From the NCBI RefSeq assembly GCF_025602895.1, contig NW_026516342.1, forward strand, positions 39,102-103,101: a DNA stretch of 64,000 nucleotides, written 5' to 3'. This document shows, piece after piece, positions 1,978 to 55,900 of the stretch (within the stretch, counting starts at the first letter, position 1; each line of letters starts with the position of its first letter). The position numbers and the translations under genes are program-made. A model generated the notes under the pieces. That model saw only the letters and a list, made by a program, of their open reading frames with translations, made no database searches and had not been told where the DNA came from. Source of the DNA: Polychytrium aggregatum. Its lineage: Eukaryota; Chytridiomycota; Chytridiomycetes; Polychytriales.

Positions 1978-3428
1978 TCAGTCCGTGTATCCGTAGTCCT
2001 TCAGTCGAAGCACGTCGATGCCACCGGCTCCAGGTTCAAACACAAAGGCAAGGCAGAGCACCGTCGTTGGTGCATTTCCGGCGTCGATGTCCTTATAGAT
2101 CTGGTGGACGTTGCGAGACGGTATCCGTTACGATCAAAGTCTGGGGTCGCAAAGCCGATTCAGACTTCATGTCCGCCCAATTGCTCGCAGGCGAAATGCT
2201 CCTGGCAGCAGAGCCGCGGGCGTGACCCCCGTACAATGGCTTGCAATCGGTTCTCCGTGTAGAGCACCGTCCGGGGAAGCCATCGCCCACTTTCTACTCA
2301 GTCGCTCCCTTTTCGTCATACGCACCTGCATGACTGTGAGATTTTCGATCGCCCAGACTGCTTCGCTGTAGGTTTCAAGTTGTGAGAAGCCATTGAGGAA
2401 GGTATTGAAGAAATCCCCGGCAAAGTCAAACCGGTATATCAGCCGGTCGTCTTGGTTGAGTGGATAGCGCATCTCGGTGGTCTCGAGGATCTTTTTGCCA
2501 AAGGAATGGATACTTGTCGTGCACTCTATGGTGCGGTACCGCAGCGACTCGTAAATGGCAATGTTTTTGCACACACCCGAGTATGTGTATCCCAGGTCGA
2601 TGTTCATCTGCAAGGATGTGGATTAGACGGCAAGGGTCACCCAAACAAGTAACAGCCAGAATAGCATTGGGCATTAGCAGTTAAGTATGAGTCGGTTGGG
2701 CATTGCAGCGACACTGGTGCCTCGATTCGTCACAGCGAGCCGCTTGCGCTTTGAATCTGACGTCAGCGCGAGCCATCCTTCTGTGAACGGTACCTACCTT
2801 CAGCAAGAAGAACGAAGCCGATCTGATGCTCTTGTCGAATTCGTCTTGTAGTCCAGGCAGCAGGTTAAGAGGAGCACTACATATATCGATAGCTGGAGCC
2901 GAAAGGAGCGTTTGGCGTTCGTTCAGACGGACCAATTGGTGTCGCTGGAGCTGGACAAACATGTGCGGCATAGAAATCAGTGTCGATTTATCGTCGGGCA
3001 GTGCCAGGATCCCACTGAACCAAGACGACGCAGATCCAGGACCACACTCAGCTCCGGATCACTTCCAGGCCCCAGGGGGACCACGTTAAGCATGCAGCTC
3101 GAAAATGTACCAACCTCGGTGCTGCAGGTCAGGTCGACAAAGTCCAGGTGCATCTGAAAGTAGGTCAGATAGAAGACCGGAGAGCCACGAGATCCATCAT
3201 CCCCGAAAGTGATGTCATCCAGGTTCACACTGTGCCGACATTGTGCCATTTTAGGGGCAGCATATGGACACGCCGACACCAAGCCGCCTATACGAACAGG
3301 CGATTCCGAGGGGCTTGGCGACGGCAGAGAATAGGGCCTGCACTCGGTAGGAGACTGGTCCGGCAGCTTGGGATGCAGATCCGATGGCGTTGGATACGAT
3401 CGAGACACGTCCTGTGGCTCCGTGGGAG
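1978..3428 (-). CDS. Unrecognised multi-exon protein, 5' end unresolved
   Basis: Minus strand. The last two exons join cleanly: 2607-2326 (94 codons, entered after TTGCAG, left at CAG|GTGCGT) and 2100-1978 (41 codons, stop at 1978-1980). An upstream exon, about 3014-2798, ends at AAG|GTAGGT. Another begins near 3428 after CAACAG and runs to about 3113. The visible protein opens with a Pro/Ser/Thr-rich segment, then has spaced cysteines and mixed hydrophobic, beta-like blocks. The C-terminus contains CLAFVFEPGAGG and ends KDYGYTD. I recognise no family. The join between the 3428-3113 and 3014-2798 exons does not resolve by simple phase. The 5' end may lie in the low-complexity DNA upstream; a hydrophobic stretch at about 3700-3740 could be a signal peptide. 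Confidence 0.6.
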
Positions 3429-6543: not shown

Positions 6544-7660
6544 TTAGTAGAGGCGGACAGGCTTGCCCATGGACGACTTGATGAAGAGGGACTTGACGTT
6601 CTGCCAGTTCTTCTTGAGAAGGGAGACCAGGAAGTTGATGGACATCATGGTGTTCTGGATGATCTCGTCCTCGGTCATATCGACGTGGCCAATGGCAACA
6701 CCGAGGCAGAGAACCTTCTTGAGCTGGAACTTGATGGTGGCCTTCATCTCAGTGACCTTGTCACCCAGGTTCTCGGAGTGGGTGAGGGGGGTGGGGAACT
6801 TGCCGGCCTTGGCCAGACCGGGACCGAGCAGACGGGGGATCTGCTTGATGAGAGCCTCAGAGGCCAGGAAGGCATCGTACTTCTTGGCAAGCTTCTTGAT
6901 CAGCTTCTTGTTCTTGTTGAGCTTCTTGAGGTCCTCAACAGACTGGTACTCGAGGTCGATCTGCTTGGCCTGATCAATGTGGGCCTGATCGGCGAGAATG
7001 CAAATCTTCATCTTGGGCTTGGGGATGTTGGGCAGGCGGACGGTTCCAGAGAAACGCTTGTCACGCTGGGGATCGTAGTTCTTGAGACCGATCTGGAGCT
7101 CGATGGTCTCGGTGAACTTTCTGGGCTTCTCCTCCTTGGAGTAGCGGAGGAGTTCCTTGACAGCCTCACGGACGGCACTCGCTTGAACCTTGCTGTGAAC
7201 AGCGACGGTGCGTGTGGGATGGGCGGGCGAGAGAGACGTTGATGTTGAGTATTGGTGCGCATGGGCTGCTTCTTCTACATGGCGACCTCCCGCTTTTCTC
7301 CCTCTCGCACACAGCGGTGGGTGTAGTTTCCCACGAGTGCGATCCGGGCCAAGTTTGGCCGTGAATTGCTCCCGCGGAACAGCTGCCTCCATCCCGTCAG
7401 GCCCAATGGGCGAGGCATCCGAGTTTGTGCCATCGTGGATCTGCCGTGCACCTTGAGGCATTCGTGTGCTCCGGATTGCTGCTGGTGCTGGTGTTGCTGG
7501 TGTTGCTGCTGTTGTCTTGATGCAGGTTTGCCCAGGTCCACATTCCGCCGAGCGTTGCATGCCTGCTGTCACGCTGTGCGCCTCGCGTACGACCACCTCC
7601 TCTCCACAGCCGATCCGCCGCATCTCCTGCCCAACGAGTCTGCTCGTTCGTTTACCTCAT
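6544..7660 (-). CDS. RPL10A: 60S ribosomal protein uL1 (L10a)
   Basis: Cytosolic large-subunit protein of the L1 stalk, which helps release deacylated tRNA from the E site. Exon 1 carries only ATGAG (7660-7656) before GTAAAC; exon 2 is 7192-6544 after TTCACAG. The join gives MSKVQASAV and 217 residues, the usual eukaryotic uL1 length. Diagnostic blocks are [59 protein letters not shown] and the C-terminal MGKPVRLY. The 463-bp intron directly after the start is typical of fungal ribosomal protein genes and includes a CAG/CAC-rich stretch on this strand. It diverges from the mitochondrial uL5m gene. Confidence 0.97.
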
Positions 7661-8096: not shown

Positions 8097-9547
8097 ATGA
8101 GATTCGCTCCCGTCCGCCTGCTTTCGTCGCTCGGCCGACCCTGCGGCCCCCATCGCCTGGCCGCGTCCGTGGCCTTGCCGGCGCGGGCTTTCGGCTCATC
8201 GTCGTCGGCCATGGCCAAGCCAAAGCCATCGGCATCGTCAGAAAAGGGCTCCAGCTCGTCGCCGTCGCAGGAGACCACAGCAACTTCGCCGCATGCACCC
8301 CTCGCCGACCAAGTGGTTCGTGTTCGCCTGGAGGAGCATTACTACAACACACTGCTGGAGGACATCATGATCCTCTCATACGATCACTCATCCCCTACAG
8401 CCAGTCTCGAGGCCGCCCTCCCTGCGCTGAGCCGCAAGCTCCCTGAGAACGCCCTCGAGGATCTTTTCTCGACCCCGTTTTCCGATCTGCCAACACACCC
8501 CACCAACAACGTCACGACACACTTTCTCCTGTCCAACGAAAACTCGGGCTCGGTCGTGAACTTTCCGAAACGTTCGTTTGCCAAGAAGAAGCTGAACCCG
8601 ATCGATTACACCATTGTCAAGAAGGAGGTCATGACGGCACTGCCGCCTCTCGATATCTGGAAGCCCTTCTCACCCTCGCCAAAGCGGCTGCCGCTGCTGC
8701 GGAAGGTCACGGTGAAGGTCTGGGAAGACTCTGCTGCTCACAACAAGTACGTAATTCGGGCACTGCGCGTCTTGCATCTGCTGGGCGCGCTAGCGGTCCA
8801 GGCGGGATCGGCTCTGCGTGGTAATTTCCACCCTGCCTCGACTCTGCCTCGATCTCGCCTTGCCCTGGTCTCGATCTAGCCTCGATCTAGCATCTCGTGC
8901 TTGCTTGCAGTTCTGAACAGACAGACGAACGTATCGCACGACAGCTCTGGTTGCTGACAGCACTCTCGACTCGATCTGGTGCCCCCCCCCATGCCGATCG
9001 CTCATCATATTGCCGCCGACATAGATCCCTACTGCTGGGTGCCATCATGAACCTCCAGTCAATCACCGGTGTCGAGGGAACGCCGCTCTTTTCCGACAAG
9101 AGCGATGCTTCCCGCAAGATCCGTGCTGGCATGCCGCTAGGTGCCAAAGTAGACCTCTACGGCGACAAAATGTACGAGTTTGTGGACAAACTGAACCAGT
9201 GCGTGCTGCCCCGCCTCCGCGAATGGGAAGGCATCAACCCGGTTGGCAACAACCTGGGCGCATTGAAGCTCGAGCTCCCCGAGTCGGCCATGGGCTACTT
9301 CCCCGATATCGAGCCTCACTTTGACATGTTCCCGAGGATGTTCAAAACCGAGATCACCTTCTTTACGACTGCCCGCAACGACCGTGAAACCATGCTGTTG
9401 CTCAGTGGCTTCCAGTTGCCATTCCTAGACAAGCCGATCGTCCAGCTCGAGGAGACCTCGGACGACAACTCGGATCCTTGGGCCAAGTTCTACAAGACAA
9501 AGCGACAGCAAGAGATGAGAAAGCAGAAGCTCATGGGCAAGAAATAG
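8097..9547 (+). CDS. MRPL7: Mitochondrial large-subunit ribosomal protein uL5m
   Basis: Exons 8097-8746 and 9025-9547 (donor GTACGT, acceptor ACATAG) give 390 residues. The N-terminus, MRFAPVRLLSSLGRPC then an Ala/Ser/Arg-rich run, looks like a mitochondrial targeting peptide. The core matches the L5 family: LRKVTVKVW, GVEGTPLFSDKSDASRKIRAG, MPLGAKVDLYGDKMYEFVDKL, then a long C-terminal extension ending KKLMGKK-like. uL5 sits in the central protuberance and contacts 5S rRNA in bacteria; mitochondrial forms keep the position. The low-complexity Ser/Lys linker after the presequence is probably disordered. The intron has CTCGATCT-type short repeats. Confidence 0.92.
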
Positions 9548-10015: not shown

Positions 10016-11513
10016 ATGTGGGTGTTTGGATACGGCAGCTTGATCTGGAAAGTCGGTATGTTGAGTCGCTCTCGGTTGCAGCCAAAAGCCCCGCCGTTGC
10101 CGCCTGCTGCATCCGTTTCCCCCAGCACTCATGTCTCGGAACACCAACCTTTGACAGACTTTCCATATGAAGTGAGGATACCGGGATACATCTGCGGATT
10201 CGTGCGGCGATTCTGGCAGGTTCGTTCAGCCGCCGACGATGCCCTGTCAGCGAGCTTGGAGCAACGCTCTGCCCGCTGGGTTTGCTTTCCTGCCATCCAG
10301 TGCCTTGCTGGATGGGGGTCGTCAGTGTCGTCCGCAAGGTCGACCAGGAACAACTCTGGTCTTTATGAGCAGCTGCCGGTGTTCAGAAACCAAAGACCCG
10401 TCGTGCTGATCCTCTCTTGTCCCCGCCACTCAGGGCAGCCACGATCACCGAGGCACTCCAGAGTCGCCCGGCCGTGTGGTGACCCTCCTGCCGTATTCCG
10501 AGTGGCAGACGCTCTCGGATCGAGACTTTGCGGTCCACCAGCGAGCAGATGTCTGCTGGGGCGTTGCATGTGAGCTTTGTTGTCGAACGATCCGAGCGAG
10601 GGCAAACGACGACAGCGCCTGCGAACCAGTATGCCCTCCATTTGGACTTGTCGATGCCTTCAATGCGTCGGTTGCTGCTGCATTGATAGCCAGCTCAGCC
10701 GGTATCCATCTTCAGTTTGCCTTGCTGCATCCCTCTGATCTCGCTGTCGCTTGCACCATATATTTCATCTGGGTTTGGCTGCTCGTATGCAGACAAGGTT
10801 GCTCCCAAGGACGAGGCATGGGTCCGGGCCCACCTCGACCACCGAGAGAAGAATGGATACGAGTCTTTCAAGGTGCCTGTCTATCACCCGCTCGCAGGAA
10901 GTGACCAGCCGATCGTTCAGAATGCCATGGTCTATCTCGCCGGCATCGAAAACGAGGCCTTCCTGGGTCCAGAAACGCTCGACCACATGGGCGTTCATAT
11001 TGCCCACTCAAGAGGTCCAAGCGGCCAGAACTATGAATGTAAGTCACCTGAAGCTTCGAGTTGGGGCTCAACGCAAGAGTGCCCACAGCGAGCGATCCTT
11101 GGATGGATTTGGCTGCGTGTATTTGTCCTGGCAGTGGTCATATCGACAGGATGCCATCTGGTGGCCTCGAGAGATCGTCTGGCATATTGCGATCTACAGC
11201 TCGGGCCCTTCTGTGCTATCTTCAGAGCCGCTGACTAAGTGCGATACCAACCGCAGACCTCTTTGGGCTTTACAAGTCCCTGAAGGCGCTGGTGCCCGAT
11301 TTCCCGGACGAGCACGTTGAGCAACTCACCGACCGGGTGGTCCAAGCCCTCAAGGATAACCACGCCTTTGATCCCAGCATGCTAGAGAACCCCAAGTTTG
11401 ACGATGCTCTGGGGGAGCTTCGAGAAATGTCAATCTGGACGCACGAGCGCCTGCAAGAGCGGCTGGATTTTGCGCACAAGCTGGAACAGGCCGAGGAGAG
11501 CTTGGCTGCATGA
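10016..11513 (+). CDS. GCG1: Glutathione-specific gamma-glutamylcyclotransferase (ChaC/Gcg1 family)
   Basis: Cleaves cytosolic glutathione to 5-oxoproline and Cys-Gly. Five exons join in phase: 10016-10055, 10158-10219, 10434-10569, 10793-11038, 11257-11513, giving 246 residues. The N-terminus MWVFGYGSLIWKVDFPYE carries the family YGSLIW substrate loop. GFVRRFWQGSHDHRGTP, GRVVTL, CWGVAYKV and DHREKNGY follow. Glu98 in REKNGY is the expected catalytic acid. Later blocks QPIVQNAMVYLAG and GPSGQNYEYLFGLYKSL also fit. A charged C-terminal helix (about residues 185-246) extends slightly beyond the shortest homologues. All active-site elements look intact. Confidence 0.94.
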
Positions 11514-12563
11514 GCAAAGTTGCTCTTGAGCTCGGCCGTGTGCCCTTTGAATGAGCCAGGCAGATTCGTGCTTGGCGATTCGTCATGGAGGCATCTCTGA
11601 AAGAGGTTCATCGCTTGTTGATATGTGACCAGAGCTTGCTTGGTTGGAAATCGTTGGCGGTGCGATCATTGGCACCGCATGTTGCGCCAGAACATGCCGC
11701 TGGATTGAACACGGAACAGGACGCCCTGAACATGCATGTGCACCGAGGAGCCAACGCAATGCGGTCGACATGAGACACTGGCATATGTGGATTCTGTTGT
11801 GCCCCTCAGAAGTGACAGTTACAGCTTCCCGCACACCTCGCTTGGGTGCGTCGACACGGGCTTCTGGCAAGCGAGCCCTGCATGGCACAGCTGCGGTGAC
11901 TATGGCGGGAAGCACAATCGGCTCTCATCCCCTCCCCTTGCAATCGGGATGCTCCTGTCCGTGCTGTGTGCGTCTGGAAGTACAGTCTGTCCAGAAAGAA
12001 ACGGGTCACTTTCCCTTCCTGGCTTCAGATGTCTGAAGCCCGCTGACTGACTGTAGGCAGCGGACAAGCCGTGCGATTGTTTCCCGTCCTGGTTGGCAAT
12101 CGAGTGGTTTTGGTTAGTTTGGGAAGCACAGTCTTGAACACACTCGGTCGATCTCCTGTGGCGATGATCGACTGGCATACCGAGATCATGTTCCTTGAGG
12201 CATTGATGTCTCGATCCCACAGCGTATGGCAGCTTGCACAGCTCCGGACAAAGTGTGGTTTCTCGATATCAAGATGGTGCTGTGCTTGGCCATGAATGTG
12301 ATGAGTGGGTGTGTATTCAGGTTCCAGAAAACAACAATGTCCTGGTTAAAAACAGGGGTGTCCCATTTCATTTTGGAATCGCTGTATGTCTCAGCCGAGC
12401 CACGATTCCCACGACTCCCACAGACCAGCCGTGGCGCAGTCGCATGTGACCCGCACATGACCGCGCCTTCAGCCCAAACCCGAACATCCATCGCCGATCG
12501 AGCGGTCCTCTGCATCCGCAACAGCATTCTGTTATCCGAGACCGCTCTGACCATCCTCCATCC
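11514..12563. other. Intergenic spacer, 1.05 kb
   Basis: No reading frame here resembles the missing N-terminal half of NOT1 or any other family I know. It is too short for about a thousand codons. Confidence 0.6.
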
Positions 12564-15500
12564 ATGAACCACCTTCCTGCCGCACACACTGCATCTTTCT
12601 TCCCAAACGCTCTCGCCGGCAACGTCGATGAGGCCAGCGCCAAGCAGATCCTTGGCCACTTCAGCACGCTCAACTTTGCGACCCTGCCCGCCAAGGTGCT
12701 GGAGCTCAAGGGACTCCTGCAGACTCAGTACTATCCCTTCGTGTGCCGACACATTGTCTTCAAAGAGATCTCTCGGGATTCAAGTGTCATACCCTTGTTT
12801 CTGGATCTCTTTCAGTCGCTCAACATCCCCGAGCTAGACCATGTTTCGTTGACTCTGACGGTTGCGAGCGCGAAGGCGATCTTGGGCTCGGACGAGATTG
12901 TTGTCTCGCCCGAGCAGCGCCTCGCTCTGCGAAATCTGGGCGTCTGGCTGTCCGGCTTGAATCTTCGACGCTGGAAGCTCGTGAAGGCCAAGCATCCCAT
13001 CCACAAGGTTGTCATCCCTTGCGATCCCTGCTTGTCGCTCCTCCAGGCGCTAATCCCCAATCTTTCGCACCTTTCACGCTGCCGATGCATCAACAGGAGC
13101 TCGTCCTTGACCTGATGGAGATCGATCGCCTGACTGTAGCCATTCCATTCATATGCAACGTGATGGATTGCTGCAACAGCGCTAGCCAGAACTTTCGCCC
13201 GGCAAGCCCATGGGGCAAGGCTCTTCTGAGATCGGTCTCGGACTTTTACCAGGTGAAGCTCAACATTCGAGCCGAAGTCGATGAGCTCGAGCACCTGGGG
13301 TCATATCAAGGTAGAGCGCTTGCGCCGATATCTACACCGGCAATTGCATGTGCAGTTTTGTCCCAGAGACATTGGCGATGTACTTTAGAGCCGATCCTGT
13401 CACAGCCTCGACTCGGCCATGGTGGTTCACTATGAGACATACCCTTTTGATTCATTCCATCGACCCCTCGATACCGTCCGCCCTGACTTTTGTTGTAACA
13501 TATGACCATTACAGCGCACTACCCTGTCTCCCGGCAGAACTTTTCGGCTGATCTTGTGGTCAAGCCCGCCGCCGGTTTGGCCCCTGACACACTTCGCCGC
13601 TGCCTGTATGAGTCCTCCCGTCGAACCATCGATGAGGTGAGTCCGTCCTGATGGTGCAGCTGCAGTCGGCTCTATACGCGCCAGTAAACCTGGACTACCA
13701 AGCCACAAAGCTGGATCCGCTTACTCATCGCACTCGTGCTGTGCTGATTCTTTGGCCAATGTCGTTGGCCATCCTCATCGAATAATCCACAGGTCATGGA
13801 GTACGTTGTTGACCGGTGTGTCTCCATTGCCACGAACACAACGCGCCTGCTGCTGCACCGTGATTTTGCTCCCGAGCATAGCGAAGCCAACATCAAGACC
13901 GCTATTCGCATTTTGGTCCAGTCCCTTGCCGGTGGGTGTCAGTTCCTGAGCAACGTCGGCACCCACAGTTGCTTGAACCTGACACATAGGACGTGCAGAC
14001 ACAACAAAATCCGTCTCTTACCTCCGACCCTTATGTTCATGCCATTAGCTGCGCTGTCAAATGTTGTATCGCGCGACTCTATCCGGCAGCGCACCAAGGC
14101 TCACATGGTTGAGATTTTCAAGGCCGCAGCGGAGGTACGTGGCTGGACAGATCACCGAGGAGGCGGAAGGCTATTTTTGACTCTGCGACTGTAGTCAACT
14201 GACGGCATTTCATATATGTTGTACAAATCCCAGGTTCCTGTCTCCGAGTTCTTGGTCTCCAGCTGGGTTGCAGACAACCTTGAAGTCCTTTCGCTCATCA
14301 TCGAGCGGGCAACATTCTCTACTGCTGCTCATGAGGTCGACCGCCTCTTTTCGGTCTACCGGGAGCAGGTACGGCACGAGTCATGCTGCTACATATGTCC
14401 AGGTCATCCTGGCTCGACTGTCGACTGTCGACTGTCAACCTGGAAGCCTGCGCAGCAGCATCCGTGGTGTGTCAGGGGGAAAGCAGGCTTCCGTTGTTAT
14501 TTCACGCCCATGTGAGGGATACAGAATTGTGTATTCAGCGCACCACGTAGATGCGATTGCGGCCATATCGAGTTCTGAACGACGTCGGTGCGCGCCGTTA
14601 GTCCCAGATACTGATGAATATGCTGTGACGTTGTCCACCAGCTTGCAAGGGGATTGGAACCCTTCCGTCGACTGGGAACAAATAGCAGCGTTGGGCTGGT
14701 AGGCATGACTGTCACTGTCCAGCACCGCTCTATGGCACGGCGCTGATTGTCGTTCTCTGCGTCATTATCCCACACAAAGGCGCGCGAAGGCTCGCCAAAG
14801 CCCATCCGACCTGCACTCTCTGGTGGCTTTCCTGATCTCGAGAGTCTACAATCGCCCGTTCCCAGCACATCCGCCCGACGATTTTCGGTAATGCGATTCG
14901 AATCGATGATCGTCACGCCGAGCTGATGGGAGAAGTTGTGCATCATCGACCGGATGTGGGAACGTGTTACCCTACACCCTCTCGTTTTAACGCCAGCCCC
15001 TTCAAATTGCCCTCTATCGACTCAGCAACTATTGATCGATCTCGAGACCATCATTGCGCAGAACTCGTCGCTCTCATTGGCGACCTTGCCGAACCAGCAG
15101 GATATCAAGCATTCTGTTCAGCAGAGCTTGGTGTTCATCGACAAATTTCCAGCGCGGTCGACTCAGCAGGAGGAGTTCTGTACACTCTTTGTCCAAAAGA
15201 TTCTGCAGTTGTTGTACCAGTATCCAGACTCGCAGCTGGCGCGCGAGGTCTTTGTTGTGATGCTGCAGAAGCTGACCGAAGTTTCAAAGAAAGCGCATGC
15301 CGAAATCCAAGAGTGGCTCCTGTACGCAGACACGGAGCGAAAGCTGAGTGTCCCGGTGATGTTTGTCTTGGTACAGTCGCGTCTGCTCCCGATTCTGGGG
15401 CTTGATGTTCAATTGGCGAGATACATCCAAAGCGCTCAGCCATCCGAAGTCGAGTTTGCGATCGACTTTATCAAGAAATGCCTGCTGGAGAAGACGGATG

Positions 15501-17012
15501 CCGACCATGCGCTATGTAGCCGCATTGATTTGCTGACCTCCCTGGACGCCCTTGCTCATCAAAAGTCGGCGGGGACGCTGAACGAAAGGTAGGAGTGATG
15601 GATTGTATTTGGCCGAGCCGAGCCGGGCAGTGACATGGCGTGTGGGCTTGAAGGGCGCATTAATGTATGCTCTCGCTGACGCATCTTCCCAACGGATTGT
15701 TGTGTCTCCATTTTTGTCTGCCATGACGCAGCGGTGCGGCGCTATTGGACCAACTTCGGTCGCAGCTGCGATCTGTCGGCGATATCGAACACGAGAGCCT
15801 CCAGGAGCAGCTGTCGCTCGTCTTTGCCGAATGGATCCGGATCTATCAGCACCCGTACTCGAGCGAGCGCATCCAAGGTGCATATATCGAGGAGATTTTC
15901 GACCGTGGGATCGTCGACAGCAACGACAGTCTCCATATCTTTCTCCGAACCTGTACCGAAGCCAGCCTTGACGAGTATGCCCACAAGACGGCTTTCCTGG
16001 CACCGGCAGCTCCGCCGACGAGTTCAGACAGGATCGTTGCAGTTGATGCATTTGCTCGTCTGATCGTTATGATACTCAAGCGCGATCTTCTGCGGTCTGA
16101 CGATACTTCGATCGACCAAGCGGCTGCCGAGGGTGAAGCAGCGAACACCAGAGACCCTATGTATCTGACGACCAAGTCGCTCTCGATCATCACCTTGGTG
16201 CTCGTCCACCGACACAAGGAGCTGTCCACTGAATTCAACCCTCAGCCGTTCTATCGCCTCTTCTCGACCATCCTCTCGGAGCTCGAGGCGAGCCGATCCG
16301 TTCTGAAAGGCAAATATGTCAAAATCCTAGTTTGCTTTGGGTACGTGCGACCACGACGATCCTGGACCGGCATGCCGAACACACGATTGCGCCAGCACAC
16401 TGTGCATGGTGCCCAGGTTGTGAAGCATACTTGATGGACCCTCATACTGACTGAGCCACCTTCACGAATGTCGATGTGTAATGCCCTTGCCGTTCCGAAC
16501 TGTCTACAGGAATGCTTTGCATAATCTGCGTCCATCCCTCGTTCCCGGGTTCGCATTTGCCTGGCTACAGCTCGTTTCCCATCGCTACTTCATGCCCAAG
16601 CTCCTTCTGGCCAAGAGACGAAAAGTATGTGTGTCACGGACAAATCGTCCTCACGGCCTGTCGATCTGCTTTATCCATCATGGAAGGCGACGTCCCGGTG
16701 GATAACTTGTTGCTCCGCCATCTCCATTTCATTCGCGCCTGCTACATCCCCTTTGCTGACATGTGTTCGCATGTGTTGATATGTTTCTAGGGCTGGTCTG
16801 TCTTTGAGCGGCTCCTCAGTGATCTGCACCAATTCATCACGCCTCTTCCAAAAGACGCCGAGTCGGTCGACAAGTCGATGCTGACGCTCTATAAAGGAGC
16901 AGCCCGGGTGTTCCTCATTTTGATACACGATTTCCCGGAGCTGCTGAAAGAGAAGGAGACTGCTTGCTCGGAACTGGTCGAGTCCTTGAAGGCGTTGAAC
17001 GTCGCTGAGTGA
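12564..17012 (+). CDS. NOT1-like protein: central part of the CCR4-NOT scaffold only
   Basis: NOT1 is the scaffold of the CCR4-NOT deadenylase. Ten candidate exons join in phase (12564-13007, 13097-13310, 13515-13636, 13793-14134, 14234-14368, 15026-15588, 15732-16340, 16510-16624, 16791-17012), counting 13793-14134 as one although it may hide a short intron; total 921 residues. It begins in the MIF4G domain that binds CAF1/POP2 (DEASAKQILGHF to about residue 220). The CAF40-binding DUF3819 follows (VMEYVVDRCVSIATNTTRLL, IRILVQSLAG), then a helical connector. The N-terminal part of the NOT module comes last (FAEWIRIYQHP, FNPQPFYRLF, PGFAFAWLQLVSHRYFMPKL, LYKGAARVFLILIHDFPELL). It stops about 20 residues after the point where family members continue into the NOT2/NOT3-binding end. 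The N-terminal HEAT half is also absent, and the neighbours leave no room for either. Confidence 0.85.
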
Positions 17013-17602
17013 GCCGCCGCCCGCCACCATGGCCTTGCTGAATATGGCTGGCATTGGTCGCTGGTCAAGCCCGGAGACGCCTGGCTTCAGACAGACACGC
17101 TATATCAACGCAAATGTGTATTCGGGGAGAACTCGTCTGCTGCAGAGCTCGGTGTTCTCGTGGGTCTCATATCGTACAGGTGAAGGTGAAGGCTGCATCA
17201 TCAAACAGCCTTGGATGAAGTAAATGCAATACAGAACGGGGCACCCAGGGCCGTCGCTTGTTTCTGGGTCCTGAATACACCACTCCATCGTTGCGCTGCG
17301 ATGCTGCGGTCCCAGCTGCCGAGGTGATCGGCTTCATCGCATACGGCCCTGCCAAACCCAGGCCGCCGCATATCGCACGTTGATCTCGACGAGATCATGT
17401 CTCACGTGCAACGCGCTGCCTGGCGCCGCCCGATCGATCACGTGTGCGGGTAGCCAACACGATCGCCGTCGCTGCCCTGTCCTGCCCTGTCCTGCCCTGC
17501 TCGGCCTGGCTGTCTCCGTCAACGACATCCCTCAGGCAGACACTACACTCGGGAGGGTCGAGCTGCACACATCCCGGGCACCTGCGTTGGCCGTTTGGAA
17601 CC
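17013..17602. other. Intergenic spacer and promoter of the WDR33 gene
   Basis: No continuation of NOT1 is visible. The stretch contains a CCTGTCCTGC-type 10-bp repeat at about 17470-17500 and ends at the WDR33 start. Confidence 0.6.
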
Positions 17603-21010
<3,408 letters not shown>

Positions 21011-31744: not shown

Positions 31745-34700
31745 CTACAGGACCATAAGGATTGCGATTGACAAAAGAGCCGCAACTGCCGATGCCACCG
31801 CAGGACCGGATCTGGACGCATCAGAGGCAGACAGTCGAGCAAAGACAGCCCAGACCCGTCCGTCGAGAGGTGGACTCTGGTTCCAGCTGTACGTGGCCGT
31901 GTTGGCTGTTGTGTTCAGCATCGAGGTGCCGTTTCCGACGGTCCAATATCCACCATTTATGGAATTGTCAACTTGATAGTAGCTATAACCATCCACAGAA
32001 ATGCCTCCTTTAGTGTTGTGGAAACCCCGACAGCAACCACGCCAAGTAAACATGCCGAGGATCAGATTCGACAAGCCGCACTTACGCCCAAGATACCGAA
32101 GAGGCGCTCCAGCCCTGACTTTGCAGTGCGCTCGGCGTGAAGGTATAAGCAAGTGTGACACTCGTTCCGGTTGATGTGGATGCTGCGATCAGGTATTCGA
32201 CCACTGGATAGTTCCCTGAATCTCCGTATTTGACACTGGGATTGATGGTAACGTTCAGGACGGTGTTTGATGGGCAGCTGTAGGTAACAGAAAGTCCATC
32301 GGTTGCCGATTTGAACACACGCTGCCCCCAGGCGCTCAAATATTGGAGACCGCCGAATGTGAAAGGAATGGTGGTCGTCTGAGGCGACATGTATGCCAAA
32401 AGATATGTCCCGGGCTGAGGTAGCTGTGCGCTCAGGACCGGTGGAGTCGAGCTCTGGAAACTGGCTGGCGTTACATGAAAAACCTTGCCTGTGGCGGTGT
32501 CATAATGTAGGAGACTTATCACCGGCAACGAGCAATTGTTAATCCAGTCATAGCGAATCTGAGGCAATTGAATCGACCAACTCAGGATGGAGCCGGTGCT
32601 GATGCTCAACACGAAGCCGGCGTCAAAATGATCAGCGAATGGGAGGCGATAGAAGCCGGCCGGGTAGACAAACGATGGATCAAGCGTGACTGCCCCCGAG
32701 AGTGTGACATTGGCCTGGGCGCTAGTGGTGATGTTCATCATCGCTGTTTCGACATTCCATGAAGCTGGTGTGTTGGCTTGCACCATGGTCGATCCGCATG
32801 CCCACCGGTGTGGGTTTCCGCTCGCAAATAGCCCAGCCGAGGGGGTGACCAAGGCTCCACTTGAGCCAACAATAACACTGGAGCAGTAAGCCGGGGTCAT
32901 AATAGGCGCAGACTGCGTTGAAGGACCTGATCCGGAGATGCTGATGGGGATGTTGACAGTCAGAGGCACGGTAGGCCCGCTGATGAAGGACGGATACGTA
33001 GCGACGAGGGTGAGGGTTGTTGTGGCAGAATTGGAATACGGATTGTATCGGATTTGGGCGTTATCAATCCAAGACTGGAGCATTGTCCCGTCAAGCGGAG
33101 GAGACAACCACAGCATCGTAGATACACCCCGTGTGGGGATGAATAGGTGCATATGTAAAACAATCCAAAGATCATTAGATGCCATTTTTGGCAGGACATA
33201 GCGATGCTCAACGATAATGTGAATGGCAGGGCATGGAGAGTCGACGATTGGCCAGCAACGAATCGATTCGAAAAACACATGTACGAGAAAGCGTCAGCGG
33301 TCCAGCGATGCTTTAAGGCACAACATAGCACACACCTGGTTCAAGAGGATTGGTCCCGATCCGATCGAGGTCCACACGCCGGGGCTTCCGCATTGGCTAT
33401 CAGGGCAAAACCATTCCAGAGCTCCGTTCGAATAAGCGCCATTCGATGGAAGGAGGGACACAGCGTTGCTCACGTTCCAGATAACATTCCAAGGATCTAG
33501 ACCGTGCGCCTCAGTCAACGTCATCACGGTAGGGCCGATCACTACCGGCGTCAAGGGGGCTGTGGTGAGAGACAGGGATGACTGTGGTGCGATAATTGGC
33601 GTATACTTGAAGGTCACCGCAATGGTGAAAGTGCCGCTCACAGTTCTGGAAAGTGAATCCGTAGCAGTGAACTGAAACGAAGCTGTGGCTGAAGACCCGA
33701 TGGTTGTCAGCAGGGTTGGCGCAAAAGTGATCAATCCCGCGTCGATGTCGGACTGGTAAAACGACGATGTGGCTGTGCCAGACTTCAGAATCGTGCCTCC
33801 AACGACAGTCGAAGGGATATACAGTAATGTCGCTGACTGCACATTTCCCAAGGTTTGAAGCTTGTCGTGAGTTATGGCCACGCTGAGGTAGTCGTCAGTC
33901 GCCAGTGCCACATTTCTATTGATGTACAAACGCGTGACGTCGGGAACGGCTATGATGCTGAACTGCGCCGTTGCTTGATTTCCTGAAGGCGTCACGCACC
34001 GAAGCGACATGGTGTAGTTTCCTGGAGCGACGTTGGCGCCGATTTGGACCGCAGTCGAGTTGATAACCGTAATGAGCCCCCCGGCGCTGCTCTGAGCCGA
34101 AAGAGCGCATGTGGATGGATATGTATAGCATGGTGAAGTTGCGGTGTAGCCGACAGTCAGAATCTGGCTGGTTGAGGCAATGCTGACTCCGAGAACGGCG
34201 GAGCTGAGAGTGATTGTTGGAGGGTTTCCATCAACAAAGGATAACGAGGCGTTGCAAACTGTTGCTTTGCCTGTTGGTTGGTGCATCCGACAGGTCAAAG
34301 TTGGTTAGCGACGACCACTTGCAGTGGCTATGCCGATAACATGGGTTGATATGGCGGGGGGGGGCGTCGTCTCCAATACACTGTCGATATACTATCGAGG
34401 ATCCCACCGATGGTCTGACTCTCAGGACGCCGAGCAACCAGAATATCGAGTCGCAAGGATATCCGATAGCTCGAGGCGGTGATTAAATTCACTTACGTTT
34501 GCCCTGAACAGTAACGCTGACAACTTGCGGGATGTTGATTCTTCCTACGAGAGAAAGCACAGTTCCGGTACCGGGGCTTTGTGAGAGCGAGTCCGTCCCG
34601 GGCCACCAAAACGCCGACGGATAGTCTGTAAACGTGGTTGTGGACGTGAGGGCCGGAACAAGAGCAGAGCAGGTTTGATCCACAGCGACGGGAGCGACCG

Positions 34701-43814: not shown

Positions 43815-45971
43815 TTAGTTGGCAGCAACCTCGGGGGCAGCTTCGGTTGCTTTGGGGTTGGCGCGCTTATCGGCGAGCTCAGCTTCGCGCTTCTCAATGT
43901 TGGAAGCCAAAAGCGAGGCACGGAAGGCCAGGGGGCGGGTCCGCTCGATGACCTGCTGGTAGATGGACGAGTTATGGGTTCCCATAACAACGGTGTTCTG
44001 AAGCATATAGAAGGGCGGGCCGGAGACAAAGACAAAGGCATTAGCGCCGGCAAAATCCAACACTGCTAACGAGCGGCGGTCGATTCGAGACTGGGTTGCA
44101 AACAGCCCCAGACATGGACACAGCATCGTCGATTGGACGAGTCGCTCACCATCTTGGAGTCGATCTTGGCATCCATGCGAGCGTTTCGGATCAAGTTGAC
44201 GATCCACTTCTCGCCCTCGTCCTCGCCCATGTTGAGCTTCTGGCTCAGACCCTTGATGTCAATTCGCTGGTGGATGCGGCAATAGGTCTCAAAGATGAAG
44301 AGGCGGGCGTTCTCGATAAAGTCCTCGCGGGTGGCGACAAGGAAAAAGTCGTTGTCCAGGACGTCGTCACAGGCCTTGAGTTTCTGCTGGGCTCCGTCAA
44401 AGTCAAAGTTGACGTACAGACACTCGATAAACTCGGTGATGGGGTCCCGGTAGATGTGAGACTCTTGCTGAATGATCTTGACAAGGTCCTTGAGGTAGCT
44501 TCGGCGCTTCTTGTTCGTCACCACGGCCGTAGCGAGATATCGGAGGATCCAGGGACACGAGGTCTGGATGGTGTTGATGTACTGGGGCAGGAAGAACAGG
44601 TCGATGATGGCGTCGCGGCCTTTGGGGTGGTTGAAGAACACAAACAGAGACCAATGGATGAGCCAGGATCGGTGCTGAAGCTGGACGACATCGGCAACAT
44701 TGGACTGCTCCACGGCTTCCTTGAGCTTCTGAAGGTCATCCAGGGCAGTCTCCCAGTTCTGGGTCAGAATCTCCGAGGCGAGCTTGCCCCAAAGAGCGCT
44801 GAGGTTGAGCTCGGGGTCCGTCGACTGTAACCACATGGCGATCGGGACACGAGGCACACAGGTCAGTGATGTACTTGTGTGCACGGACCTGTATCTCGCT
44901 CGCAACTCGATGACGACAGTCGCCGAGCGAGTGCCGGCAAAGAAATAGGCATTGACGAATGCGCCGCTCGGTGCCGCGGCGAGATGCGCCTCGGAGTAGA
45001 GCACGGCCTTACCAAGATTCGGAAATGGTACAGCATCTCGGCGGTGCCGCTATAGTTTCCGACGGCAAACTGGAACATGGCGAATCTGTACAGCACAGTA
45101 AGCATCTCTGGCTTGAACTGGAATGAGAGGAAGACCGAGTGAGGCACATTAGTGCGAGGCGCTTGGACGCTGATTTTCTGGACTCAACGAGAAGCTGCAA
45201 CGATCTCCGCATCCAAATCATCGGACTCCAGGGCAACCGATCCCAGCGACCGAGACTGACATTGAAGTTCTCCTTCAGGAACTGCACGTTCGCCAGCTTG
45301 TCTTGCTTCAGCTGCTGAATAACGGTGGGATCCTGGAGGATCGTCATGATCTCGTCGCTTTCATCTTGCAGGTTCTCGAGCTGCTGGAGAACCTGGTCAC
45401 GCTTTTCGTCGTAATCTGCAAGCGGCGCAGCAGACATGATTAGGGCTTGCGTCTCGATCGGGGAGACGGATTCACATGTGCTTCATCCGCACAAGCAGCC
45501 CGGAATCGATCCAAGGCAGGCAGGCAGTGTGGTGGCATCGAACACGCAGTTGAATCGATACCAACCCGGGGCGTTATCTTCGGTCTCGTGCAGCGACTGG
45601 TAAATGCTGTTGGCAAAATCAATCATGTTGGTTTTGCTCAACAGATCGTACTTGGCCTCCAGTAGGTCCTTTTCGTCATAGAGCTGGTCGACGTTGGAGG
45701 TTGCCACAGGAGAAGGACGATGGGCGGGATAAGAGGGTGAGACAGCCGATCTCGGTCACGGTGCGCCGAATTACGATCAGCAAATCCAAGCACGGCGGGG
45801 TACGTTGCTGGGGAGAAGGTGCAGTCGCTATCAAAGGGTGCTGTTGCAGCCTCTTCGCTGAAAATCGGACCAAAGACCTACGTTTTTGTGGGTGATGAAC
45901 TCCAGCAAAGGGATGACCATGTGTCGATCCAAGTACTGTCCGATCTTGGAGGTAAGGTCGAATTCAGCCAT
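43815..45971 (-). CDS. INT6: Translation initiation factor eIF3 subunit e (Int6)
   Basis: Subunit of the eIF3 PCI/MPN octamer; also linked to proteasome and decay pathways in other species. Exon 1 is 45971-45882 ([20 protein letters not shown], ending ITHKN). Exon 2 begins [20 protein letters not shown] after GACCAG (about 45690). Exon 3 begins [16 protein letters not shown] (about 45415) and ends LKENFN. A small exon gives [20 protein letters not shown]. The large exon (about 44825-44150) carries [60 protein letters not shown], and the PCI winged helix [20 protein letters not shown]. The last exon gives [20 protein letters not shown], an Ala/Glu-rich tail and a stop at 43815-43817. Length near 440 residues is normal. 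Diverges from the eL6 gene. Confidence 0.96.
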
Positions 45972-47323
45972 GCTTGCGGGTTGGGAGTGCGGGGTAGTTG
46001 GGTTCACGTCGGTGGGCAATTGCGGATGCAAGTCAGGGAGCCGGACGGGGGGGGTGTCGCTGGTTGTGCTGGCTGGTTTACGGGACCGTTCTGACACACG
46101 ACGGCGAGACGACAACGAGCAATCGAGTCGGAAGCGAAGGAGGGAGGAGACGAGGTGCGGGACGAGCCGATGGCAGAGACCGAGGCTCGCGCGGGTCTGG
46201 TTGGTGGACACGCCGCGCCCTGTGAAAAAAAAGATGGTTCGATCCGTGCGCCGCTGGCTGGGATTGGGCTGGTCGCACAGAGCTCTCGCGAGAATGAATT
46301 TCATCTGTGTGTGTGTGTGGCTCGAATGGCACGTGGCTGGAGCCAGCCTCACGTGGACCGGACGAAGGCTCCGTGGCGGTGGAGGCAGTGCTGCCTCTCG
46401 CCGTGTCTGCCCGTCCCTCTCGGCGCCTCTCGCTCCTCGGCGTCTCTCGCCGAGCCAGCAGCCTGGTCACGTGTGTCGCTGCATTTGGTTGGTGACTGTC
46501 TTTATTGGGTCTTTGCGAATCCTCTTGCTTTCCCTCCTTCTCTTTTGCACACATAGCATCGGTGAGTAGCGGCATGGCAAGGCGACCGACGACGACGGCG
46601 TCATGCATCCATGCATCCATCCGTGCATCCGTCCATCCATCCATCCATCCATCCATCCATCCATCTATCCGTGCGCCCGGGCATCTATCGGGCGATCCAC
46701 TCCGCGACGCCCAGAGCCAATGTTCGGCAGCGATATCGGCCAACCACAATTGAGCAATTCGGCTCTGCAGCCGGAGATTCGATCATCAAGCACTGAACTC
46801 GATATTGCGTGGACTTTGACTTTTCCAATTATGGATATCGTTGATGTACCCGGTCAGCCTGGAGCTGCGATCGACAGGACGCCGCCATGCTGTCAGCGCT
46901 CATGGGGGATGCCTTGAGGCTGGCCGGCTGATCCGGCCCAGCACACCACCACGGAGTCGCGGACCTCTGGTGGATCGTTTTGCGGATATGACGATGCTGA
47001 CCAGCCGACAGGAGCAACTCTCAGCCATTTACTGTCACCCTGATTCAGCCAGCGTTCGCATGACGCATCGGAATCGACCGCGAATCGGATGCGGCGGGCA
47101 GCTTGGCAATCGACTTGCGGGCACAACCATCCCGGCGACCTAGGTCTCAGCCATGGACCTGCTCCTGTCCACGCCTCAAGATCAGCGACGGTGGTGCAGA
47201 TGGATGGATCGGATGGCGGCTTGCAGAGTCTGCAACTGAAGCGATCGCGTGCAAACTCGACGGCGCCACTAATCATCTGGATCACTCCGGTCGTTCTTGC
47301 GGCAACAGTGGAAAACGTCAGCA
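45972..47323. promoter_or_regulatory. Divergent intergenic region, eIF3e / eL6
   Basis: 1.35 kb between the two start codons. The eL6 side has a CATC-type microsatellite, listed separately. Homopolymer G and A tracts occur near 46048 and 46227. No gene is convincing. Confidence 0.5.
46600..46672 (+). repeat. CATC/CATG(CATC)n microsatellite
   Basis: Imperfect tetranucleotide run of CATC and TGCATC/CGTC variants, about 70 bp, in the eIF3e/eL6 divergent spacer. Confidence 0.9.
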
Positions 47324-48321
47324 ATGGCCCACGCTCCCAACGTTCAGCTCATTCCTGGAGTCTCCAAGCTCTCTAGATCTCAGGTCTACGCCAAGAAGGC
47401 CCTCTACAAGAAGAAGAAGGTCGTCATTGCTGCCAAGACCGAGGCTAAGGCTGCCACCAAGACCGTCACCGTTGGCGGCGCCAAGAACGGCCAGACCCGT
47501 GTCGTCCCTGTCGAGAAGGCCTCCCGCTTCTACGCCGCCGAGGATGCCCCCCAGCCCAAGGTCTCCCGCAAGACCGTCAAGACTGGTGCCCTCCGCCAGA
47601 GCATCACCCCCGGCACTGTCCTGATCGTCCTGTCGGGCCGCTTCCGTGGTAAGCGCGTTGTCTTCCTCAAGAGACTCGACTCTGGCCTCCTCCTCGTCAC
47701 CGGCCCCCACAAGGCCAACGGCGTCCCCCTCCGCCGCGTCAACCAGGCCTACGTCATTGGCACCTCCACCAAGGTCGATGTCAGCAAAGTCAACGTTGAC
47801 AAGTTCGACGACGCCTACTTCAAGAAGCCCAAGGCTGCCAAGGCCAAGGCCACCGAGGAGGCTCTCTTCAACGCTGCTGAGGTGCGTAGATAAGAGCGCA
47901 TCGAATCTGTGGCTGAAAGGAGGACGTTTGCTGGGCAGTGGCTGCGGGAAATGCGAGCTCCTCCCGAGTCTGGCCGCTCTGCGTCTTTTGAGGCTGGGCG
48001 ATGACGTTCTTGGAGCCGCCGATTTGCACGGTCGCCGATGGCTATGGCTATGGGTCGAATCACAATGGTGTCTCGGCTTCTTTGCCAGCACATAGCACAT
48101 AGCACATAGCACATAGCACATGGCGCATGGCGCATAGCACAGGGCTCTAACCTTCCGATCTCTTCCAGCGCAAGCCCGTCGATGCCCACCGCATTGCTGA
48201 CCAGAAGGAGGTTGACGCTGCCGTCAGCGCCGCCATCAAGAAGGTTCCCGCTCTCAGGGGCTACCTCAGATCGTCCTTTGCTCTGTCCAAGGGTCAATTC
48301 CCCCACTTGCTGAAGTTCTAG
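47324..48321 (+). CDS. RPL6: 60S ribosomal protein eL6
   Basis: Eukaryote-specific large-subunit protein. Exons 47324-47881 and 48169-48321 (donor GAG|GTGCGT, acceptor TTCCAG) give 236 residues. Family blocks: basic N-terminus with LYKKKKVV, the KOW-like [20 protein letters not shown] and [40 protein letters not shown], and the C-terminal [18 protein letters not shown]. Codon use is strongly biased towards C-ending codons (AAG, GTC, ACC), as expected for a highly expressed gene, and differs from its neighbours. Confidence 0.98.
48086..48141 (+). repeat. AGCACAT heptad-like repeat in the RPL6 intron
   Basis: CACATAG/CATGGCG units of about 8-9 bp repeated six to seven times, just upstream of the second exon. 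Confidence 0.8.
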
Positions 48322-52118
<3,797 letters not shown>

Positions 52119-52931: not shown

Positions 52932-55900
52932 TTAAAGGGTTTGTCTCCAGAACGGATAGGTTCTCCACATCCGGTTGATGGTGCCGAGCCGCTGCGAAAC
53001 AGCTAGGTCCATGCTTTCAAGCTCGCGCAAATCCTGCATGAACATGGTCCGATACTGGCCCTTTGTCGGGATGAAGCTGGTGTTCTGGCGCAAGCGATGT
53101 ACCTCCATCAGCACCAGGCCCTGCTCGCGGTAGGGCAGATAGAGACGGGAGGCCGGGATATCGGTGGTTTCATCATCCGTCAAGCTCAGTTCCTTGGGCG
53201 AGCTCGCTAAATTCAGAATACGCTCGATTGTTCTTTTGTGCGAATCGAGCAGCCGGTTTGCCAATGTGATAGCGCATGACAGTGCATGCGTTGCGCGGCC
53301 AGTGGAAATTGGTCAGTTGACAAAATCGGACACACGATTGCCGGATGCGTCACCCGCGGAGAAGCGAGTTTCCCTCAGAGGTCGTCAAACAAACAGACTA
53401 GGCCACTCATCCCTTCGCCATTCCTTTCGCCATTACTTTCGCCATTACTTTCATCGGCCCACCATTCCATTCGCCTCTTCATCATCCACTTGGCCAGGCA
53501 CACACCGCTCGCGTTGCGTCAAGATGCCAGCTTTGGTTCAAGGAGCGGACCTGAGCCCGTGGCTGTGGGGCCGCTTGGACGAGGTCATGTCTGGCGTTAC
53601 CTGAGACTATGGCGGATGGATTGATAGGCGTTGGTGCGCCCGATTCCCATGCGGCTTCCCCACAGCTGCTGGAGCTGATATCCGACGCTATAAACGAGCA
53701 GAAGCGATGGAACCGTTGCCAAGAAGGCAAAGTTGAGCTCGTTCGCCTTGAGCAGCTTGTCCAGCGCCGTCATTGCAACTTCGCCGTCGACTTTTGTCTT
53801 TTGCACCTGAATGAGCAAGGTGCGGATCAAGTCGCCTGTAGATACGGTCAGCGAAGTGAGCTCTCGCGGGCGATCCCATTCGCGATTAGGCATTTGAAAA
53901 AATCCACGAAAAGTTCAAAGATGCACCAAAACGCAGCTTGAGCATGGCGATGTTGCCATGCGAGGCTCCGGTGCACTGGATCAGGTCGAATCGAGCTCAA
54001 GGTCACGGCTCGATATCTTACCAAACACCACGTTTCGGAGGGGCTGTTTGAGCTCTTCTTCATATCGCCGGAGCACAACCGTCACGTCCCCGACTCTAGC
54101 CCTTCCAATAATGTCTTGAAGTTCGGAGGTCGATGCGACGCCATGGTCTTTGGCAAAGTCGACAACCATTCGCTCTAGCGACTGGCACCATGCGCAATCC
54201 AAGTGTGCAGAACAGCCATCAGACATTGGCCGAGAACCGAGACCCCCCCGGCACGGTTCTGCTCGCTTCCATCAAAAACGTCCGCACCAGTCAAGCAAGT
54301 AAAGAGTCATTACAACCACGATACTCTCTTCGTTCACCCACCTCAATGTCCGAGTTCAATGACTCTGCTCCGAGAAGGGCGAGCTGTGCCTCTTGGTGGC
54401 GAATCGTCATCCAAATATCACGAAGAGGCTTATAAATCCACTCGGACGCAAAGGAGTGGACTGTGAGCCCAATCTCGGTGATGTAGTCGCTGATCACTTG
54501 GCCGGTCAGGACCTTGGACAGCTTCCATGCGGCAAAGGCACCGAGGGAAGCCGGCAGCCACCAACGCGTGACAAACGATGGGCGGCCATGGCTCCGCCCG
54601 AGGTGCGCATAGTGGCCCTCCAAAGTCTTGAGCGAAGAGATTGCAGCGAGCGCTCGATCATATATGATTTTGGTGGAAAAGTCGGTACCTTCTTCCACCT
54701 CTACAACAACTGGAGAGACCGTGGATCCACAAGGCGCGGTGAGATTGATTGCTTAGTAGACAGCGCGCGCCTGACAACAATGATTCTGCGGACTTTCACC
54801 CAAGCTTATCCCAGGCTACAGCATCGGAGGGTCACGCACATCTCTTTGGCACGGCAGAGATCATTTGGAGCTTCCCATACCATCAAGATCCATCAGGATA
54901 GCCTCCATATCATCGTCGTGGTCTAGCTTTTGCGTTTTGTCCATGATGCTCTGCATGAGGCCCAAACTCCAATTGACGTGCGACTTGAGTTGAAGGATAA
55001 AGGTCTTGTCGGAAGCATCCACACGGACTTGGCTAAGCTCGTTCAAGTTGAGTCCACGATTGGTCAACAGGCCCAGGTACGCAGCCTGAACTTCGTGTGC
55101 CCGCCAGAGAGCAAGTCTTTTCTTCGATATCTCTGTGCGAGTCAGCTGCAGCAGCGACGGCGCAAAGAGCATATAGTTCTTTAGGCCAATAGTGCTCGAG
55201 GATAGGAACGACTTGAAATTGCGACTGGACTTTGAAAGCGACAGATGTGAAGCTGCCGAGATGGTCGTATCCGAAAAGAGCGAGAGCGACAACGGCAGCG
55301 ATGTCAGGGAAGTGAAGAGCTGTGCAAGCGAGGGCCGCTGATGTTTTGCCCAGGCCGAAGCCACGAGTCGGAAGAGCCGTTCAGGAAGCGTTTGTACGAG
55401 ATAGAGGCCAATGGAAAAATTCGAGCCCTCGACATCCAGCCAATGACCCATGCTTGGGACGATCGAGGTCGATTGAGCGAGGATCTTCTCGACAAGGTGC
55501 GCGTGGATCACCGAAGCAGCTTTGGCAAGAAGCAATATCTCCAGCGTGCTCGCAGTTTCGTCAGGCTTTGCTGGAGGAACCTCGGAAACAGAGGTCGCTG
55601 TATGATGCCACAGGTGGGGCCCCACGGGTGAAACAGCAATGATGTAAATGTCAGAAGCAGAGGCCGTGGCGGTTTTCCGGCTGATATCGCAGCCCAAGGT
55701 CGCTCGGGTGCATGCAGCTCACGACAAGCTGGACAGATAAAGATATATCTGACAAAATCTGGCTGGCTCTTGAAGTCATCTTGGACCACGGCTGGACTTA
55801 CCCGTTTCCTCTGCATAGAGCAACTGACGACATTGGTGGATGGTGCTTTCGATGGTATCGATCGAGGGGATATGTGAGTCCGAGTGGCCGCTACGTCCTT

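Follow-up and report, generated by a model that had tools for sequence, protein, structure and literature searches.

NOT1 is the protein on which the main machine for shortening messenger RNA (mRNA) tails is built. In a stretch of 64,000 nucleotides of DNA from Polychytrium aggregatum (contig NW_026516342.1, here called the window), a gene was found that encodes the centre of a NOT1-like protein and stops inside its NOT (SHD) domain. Compared with known NOT1 proteins, the retained half of the NOT domain is as conserved as the neighbouring gene WDR33, whereas the CAF1-binding MIF4G domain and the CAF40-binding domain are far more diverged. We tentatively favour a functional paralogue of NOT1 that has diverged and been shortened, and a full-length NOT1 would then be kept elsewhere in the organism.

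The domain composition of the protein was analysed with Pfam profiles. The CAF1-binding MIF4G domain (PF16415) matched residues 21-212 over profile positions 5-198 of 225 (E 8e-31, 107.5 bits against a cut-off of 33.4), followed by the CAF40-binding domain (DUF3819, PF12842) at residues 245-375 (positions 2-133 of 143, E 6e-23, 82 bits, cut-off 27) and the connector (PF25097) at residues 422-614 (positions 2-200 of 201, E 1e-21, 77.5 bits, cut-off 27). When PF23590 was tested on the connector, it reached 21.8 bits and stayed under its cut-off of 27. The Not1 profile PF04054 matched residues 787-902 over its first third only (positions 3-119 of 372, E 8e-33). The order of MIF4G, CAF40-binding domain, connector and partial NOT domain is that of NOT1. 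Residues 626-899 aligned with the first half of the solved C-terminal domains of human, Chaetomium and yeast NOT1 in the PDB, up to the motif HDFPE; chain 4c0e, whose record says NOT1, is presumably the Chaetomium protein. The gene starts 20 residues ahead of the MIF4G match and ends about halfway through the NOT domain. The preliminary description of this DNA had claimed that only the centre of NOT1 is encoded, from the MIF4G domain through the CAF40-binding domain into the NOT domain, and the Pfam and PDB alignments bear this out. Judged by these matches, the gene belongs to the superfamily of NOT1, the CCR4-NOT scaffold, with three of its domains complete and the fourth present by half.

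The missing parts were searched for with the human HEAT sequence, the human and yeast TTP-binding sequences and the human, Chaetomium and yeast C-terminal sequences. The queries were run by tblastn against the 64 kb and as hidden Markov models (HMMs) against 1785 six-frame open reading frames (ORFs) of at least 20 residues. With both methods, nothing credible was found within the window for the N-terminal HEAT region, the TTP-binding region or the second half of the C-terminal domain. The HEAT-repeat N-terminal half is thus missing from the window, as had been described. By tblastn, the best match of the human HEAT query had an E value of 0.12, the C-terminal queries reached 0.34 at best, and the best yeast TTP-binding match (E 0.04) covered 15 residues at 60884-60840. 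The best match of the human TTP-binding query fell on the connector of the gene itself (15182-15436, forward strand), with E 0.004 by tblastn and 0.0094 in the same ORF with the HMM; this weak match perhaps reflects a common MIF4G-like fold. For a positive control, the first half of the human NOT domain was used, which retrieved the gene at E 1.6e-16. A complete C-terminal SHD with the NOT2 anchor site is not encoded, as the PF04054 match breaks off at position 119 and the remainder was not found in the window. By this comparison, the gene falls short of a complete NOT1 in two architectural features, the full SHD and the N-terminal HEAT and TTP-binding regions.

The divergence of each domain was measured as the window-human bit score scaled to the yeast-human bit score, with Chaetomium added for the NOT half. 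The control was a single neighbour gene, WDR33, of which a fragment of 184 residues was compared. The MIF4G domain scored 70 bits versus 155 for yeast and human (ratio 0.45). The CAF40-binding domain scored 39 bits versus 65 (ratio 0.60) and was 21 % identical to human, with 31 % for yeast. For the NOT half, 146 bits were obtained versus 87 (ratio 1.68; about 86 between human and Chaetomium), and the identity to human was 37 % for the window, 30 % for yeast and 29 % for Chaetomium. The WDR33 control gave 291 bits versus 184, a ratio of 1.59. The contrast in identity between the NOT half and the CAF40-binding domain had a z of 2.47 (p 0.014). In Pfam bits relative to human, the MIF4G domain stood at 0.39, the CAF40-binding domain at 0.49 and the first third of Not1 at 0.81. 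In the domain comparison with the canonical references, the CAF40-binding domain scored 177 bits in human, 166 in yeast and 87 in the window, and the first third of Not1 scored 141, 141, 107 and 114 bits in human, yeast, Chaetomium and the window, respectively. A missed exon was considered as the cause of the low MIF4G scores and rejected, as the alignment spans 186 positions at 28 % identity with no large gaps. By its one control, WDR33, the genome does not appear to be fast-evolving in general, whereas the two docking domains of the NOT1-like gene do. The preliminary description had seen conservation across all domains; the domains do look coding, but their conservation is uneven.

This unevenness bears on the possibility that the only NOT1 is encoded in pieces that assemble in trans, with the window gene for the centre and separate genes for the N-terminal half and the remaining SHD. 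A split canonical NOT1 would agree with a start placed cleanly at a domain edge and with a NOT half conserved like the canonical one, and the N-terminal half is dispensable in yeast according to excerpts of PMC8970588. A canonical scaffold should, however, keep its CAF1 and CAF40 docking, and both domains are strongly diverged. The other NOT1 pieces were also not found in the 64 kb. Since the divergence is uneven, we regard a split gene as unlikely.

The contact sites for the partner proteins were compared with those of the known complexes. Thirteen human residues in two CAF1-facing loops are named in excerpts of Petit et al. 2012 (PMC3510486). Six of them are identical in the window protein (K1208, K1218, S1249, F1252, P1257 and W1258) and seven are changed (N1207, P1209, H1212, V1250, V1251, P1255 and N1256), and the conserved motif PPNPW has become PASPW. 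The junction of exons 1 and 2, with its weak donor, falls within the first loop, for which an alternative alignment is possible, so that the second loop alone is firm. CAF1 binding by the window protein is uncertain, as judged from these residues. For the NOT domain, the excerpted review PMC4032980 places the NOT3/NOT5 anchor on NOT1 HEAT repeats 1-5 and the NOT2 anchor, which begins at repeats 9-10, on repeats 9-10 and 4-6. The NOT part of the window protein aligns with positions 21-286 of a C-terminal construct of 535 residues. Estimated by length and not by structure, it would keep roughly HEAT repeats 1-5 and lose repeats 9-10. Of the NOT2/NOT3-binding end, which had been described as missing, the repeats 9-10 with the start of the NOT2 anchor thus appear lost, whereas the NOT3/NOT5 anchor half appears roughly kept, within what the review excerpt states.

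The preliminary description had also proposed a paralogue acting as a mini-scaffold, which would bind CAF1 and CAF40 and keep both from the NOT2/NOT3 module. In favour of such a role, the profile matches show both docking domains to be complete, and the central CAF1 contacts are kept. On the other side, relative to the canonical proteins, conservation is lowest in the MIF4G and CAF40-binding domains and highest in the half for NOT3/NOT5 docking. The paralogue part of the proposal fits best, but the uneven conservation runs against a gene kept mainly for the deadenylase and CAF40, and a mini-scaffold of this kind seems rather improbable to us.

A misassembled or misjoined contig, in which wrong neighbours interrupt the exon series of a normal NOT1, was weighed with the composition of the locus. 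Just beyond the gene end the guanine-plus-cytosine (GC) content steps from 0.52 to 0.60, and a small tandem array of 29 bases lies at 17472-17500. Both could be read as traces of a misjoin. Two separate breaks would be needed, however; one would have to leave a start codon at a domain edge, and the other a tail that looks coding and ends in a stop. Direct repeats of at least 20 bases were not found in 11000-18000. The GC step and the tandem array probably do not mark a misjoin. A normal NOT1 would also not be expected to diverge unevenly, and for this reason we give a misassembly little credence.

Each of the four domains looks coding. The third-position GC is 0.65-0.73 across them versus 0.53 in the introns, and the chance that 918 codons stay open in unselected sequence of the same composition is about 6e-14. 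A NOT1 duplicate in decay but still intact in appearance would account for two strongly diverged domains and the loss of both ends, but it is improbable because the frame, the splice sites of 10 GT-AG introns joined in phase, the raised third-position GC and a NOT half conserved at the canonical level all persist.

The functional, shortened paralogue is favoured because a canonical NOT1, whether split or misassembled, should keep its CAF1 and CAF40 docking at canonical conservation. Selection acting mainly on the NOT half fits the observations best, as far as the alignments tell. The function of such a paralogue can be predicted from its parts. The conserved half would present the NOT3/NOT5 anchor site without the distal NOT2 site, and the shortened protein could hold NOT3/NOT5 in a partial NOT module, while docking of the deadenylase and CAF40 would be weakened or altered. 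In competition with full-length NOT1, deadenylation may then be damped or NOT3/NOT5 redirected. A second, full-length NOT1 in the same genome is accordingly a prediction of the paralogue reading. With more doubt, a natural half-module NOT1 can be envisaged, a short second scaffold of a fungal lineage in which the NOT3/NOT5 half is under strong selection and the deadenylase and CAF40 docking drifts. It might separate the functions of NOT3/NOT5 from deadenylation or act as a dominant negative on CCR4-NOT.

Several observations weigh against the shortened paralogue. The central CAF1 contacts F1252, P1257, W1258 and K1218 are kept, and CAF1 may still bind. The yardstick for the rates is the human-yeast pair, to which Chaetomium is added for the NOT half, and WDR33 is the one control gene. 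No relatives were confirmed among 86 pattern matches in viral contigs and 96 in prokaryote genomes, both collections not meant for eukaryotes. Finally, the connector reaches only 0.30 of the human Pfam bits, which would break a simple two-part pattern. The human connector, however, retrieves no Chaetomium connector with phmmer at E 1 or better, and the window connector does so weakly (E 0.001). Since the connector diverges fast among canonical NOT1 proteins, its low score was set aside and the connector was dropped as evidence on divergence.

The gene model was built by homology and comprises 11 exons on the forward strand, joined in phase into 918 residues; the preliminary description was right about an in-phase NOT1-like gene and had counted 9-10 exons and 921 residues. 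All 10 introns are GT-AG and measure 89-411 nt, and the TGA stop codon lies at 17010-17012. Exon 7 is doubtful, as its codon positions are not coding-like, and the protein has 882 residues when it is left out. Intron 4 (13932-14048) is a multiple of three in length, has no in-frame stop and could be retained. The domain picture is unaffected by either uncertainty.

Table 1. Exons of the NOT1-like gene (12564-17012) in window coordinates.
Feature	Position	Strand	Content
Exon 1	12564..13007	+	ATG, leader of 20 residues, first part of the CAF1-binding MIF4G domain
Exon 2	13097..13310	+	Remainder of MIF4G; the preceding intron has the weak donor GTTGTC
Exon 3	13515..13636	+	Linker and start of the CAF40-binding domain
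Exon 4	13793..13931	+	CAF40-binding domain
Exon 5	14049..14134	+	CAF40-binding domain; the 117-nt intron ahead could be retained in frame
Exon 6	14234..14368	+	End of the CAF40-binding domain
Exon 7	14780..14887	+	Linker of 36 residues; doubtful
Exon 8	15026..15588	+	Connector (ARM_Cnot1)
Exon 9	15732..16340	+	Last part of the connector and beginning of the NOT (SHD) domain
Exon 10	16510..16624	+	First half of the NOT domain
Exon 11	16791..17012	+	NOT domain up to the HDFPE motif, unmatched tail of 19 residues, stop

The flanks of the gene are as previously described. Upstream, the last ORF taken as ChaC (11235-11510, stop at 11513) ends 1051 bases before the gene; this ORF has no Pfam match itself, and ChaC is supported by the two preceding ORFs, which do. 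Downstream, the ATG of WDR33 at 17603 follows after 591 bases. For the wider surroundings, 50 stretches from the 651 window ORFs of at least 60 residues were run against Pfam. Housekeeping-type neighbours were found at 6547-7656 (-), 8891-9544 (+), 44069-45482 (-), 47273-47890 (+), 52935-54752 (-) and 60621-60995 (-), with the families ribosomal L1 and L5-C, PCI and eIF3_N (eIF3e-like), ribosomal L6e, NCA2 and PIH1. At 48780-51922 (+), an amino-acid-kinase ORF is followed by an ORF with NAT and semialdehyde dehydrogenase, a pair which we take to be the fungal ARG5,6 arrangement. Together with NCA2, this pair would point to a fungal host, and PIH1 would agree with one that bears a flagellum. 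The ORF at 2170-2622 (-) matched the TEAD-type YAP-binding domain (PF17725, 29.7 bits, cut-off 23) in this fungal-looking window, and no TEA domain was found among the 10 nearby ORFs tried. A long ORF at 33297-34304 (-) gave a Cadherin-like match (PF16184) of 19.7 bits, under the cut-off of 25.5. No tRNA was detected in the 64 kb by ARAGORN, and no Rfam match reached the gathering scores.

To our knowledge, NOT1 is known only as a single gene outside one lineage. If the favoured reading is true, this short NOT1, whose docking half is intact while its deadenylase docking drifts, would amount to a naturally occurring separation-of-function allele and could be used to ask how NOT3/NOT5 act when the nuclease module is absent. 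Should the window gene instead be the only NOT1, it would show that a break within the SHD is tolerated by the scaffold. According to excerpts of the review PMC4032980, neither yeast nor human cells can do without NOT1, and its activity requires the NOT module to be intact. The NOT1 duplication in the Aconoidasida was unique to the knowledge of its authors in 2021 (PMC8562791, in excerpt). Beyond the paralogue described there, NOT1-G, the excerpts of PMC8562791, PMC8970588 and PMC8009681 describe no natural truncated, short, split or paralogous NOT1.

The window gene resembles canonical NOT1/CNOT1 of human, yeast and Chaetomium in the order of MIF4G, CAF40-binding domain, connector and SHD, with significant profile and sequence matches. 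It differs from them by the lack of the N-terminal half with HEAT and TTP-binding regions and of the second SHD half, and by its unusually diverged MIF4G and CAF40-binding domains. With NOT1-G of Plasmodium, Theileria and Babesia it would share the status of a second NOT1-type scaffold. The excerpts of PMC8562791 state that the NOT1 domains of the two Plasmodium copies are 50 % identical and that NOT1-G bears a TTP-binding domain. The window gene has half an SHD, no TTP-binding domain was found in the window, and the lineage is presumably a different one. By these features, it is not a NOT1-G as described in that excerpt. Two laboratory variants come close to one end each. Yeast Not1 lacking the residues up to 753 grows well at 30 C (PMC8970588, in excerpt), and therefore the loss of the N-terminal half is tolerable and alone unremarkable. 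Drosophila Not1 delta-N-SD has a crippled C-terminal domain, if the name is taken as the loss of the C-terminal homology domain; it still bound Caf1 and doubled the mRNA half-life, according to the excerpted review PMC4032980. Both variants are engineered, as far as these excerpts go, and are altered at one end each in an otherwise normal protein, unlike the window gene. The window protein may work like a truncated NOT1.

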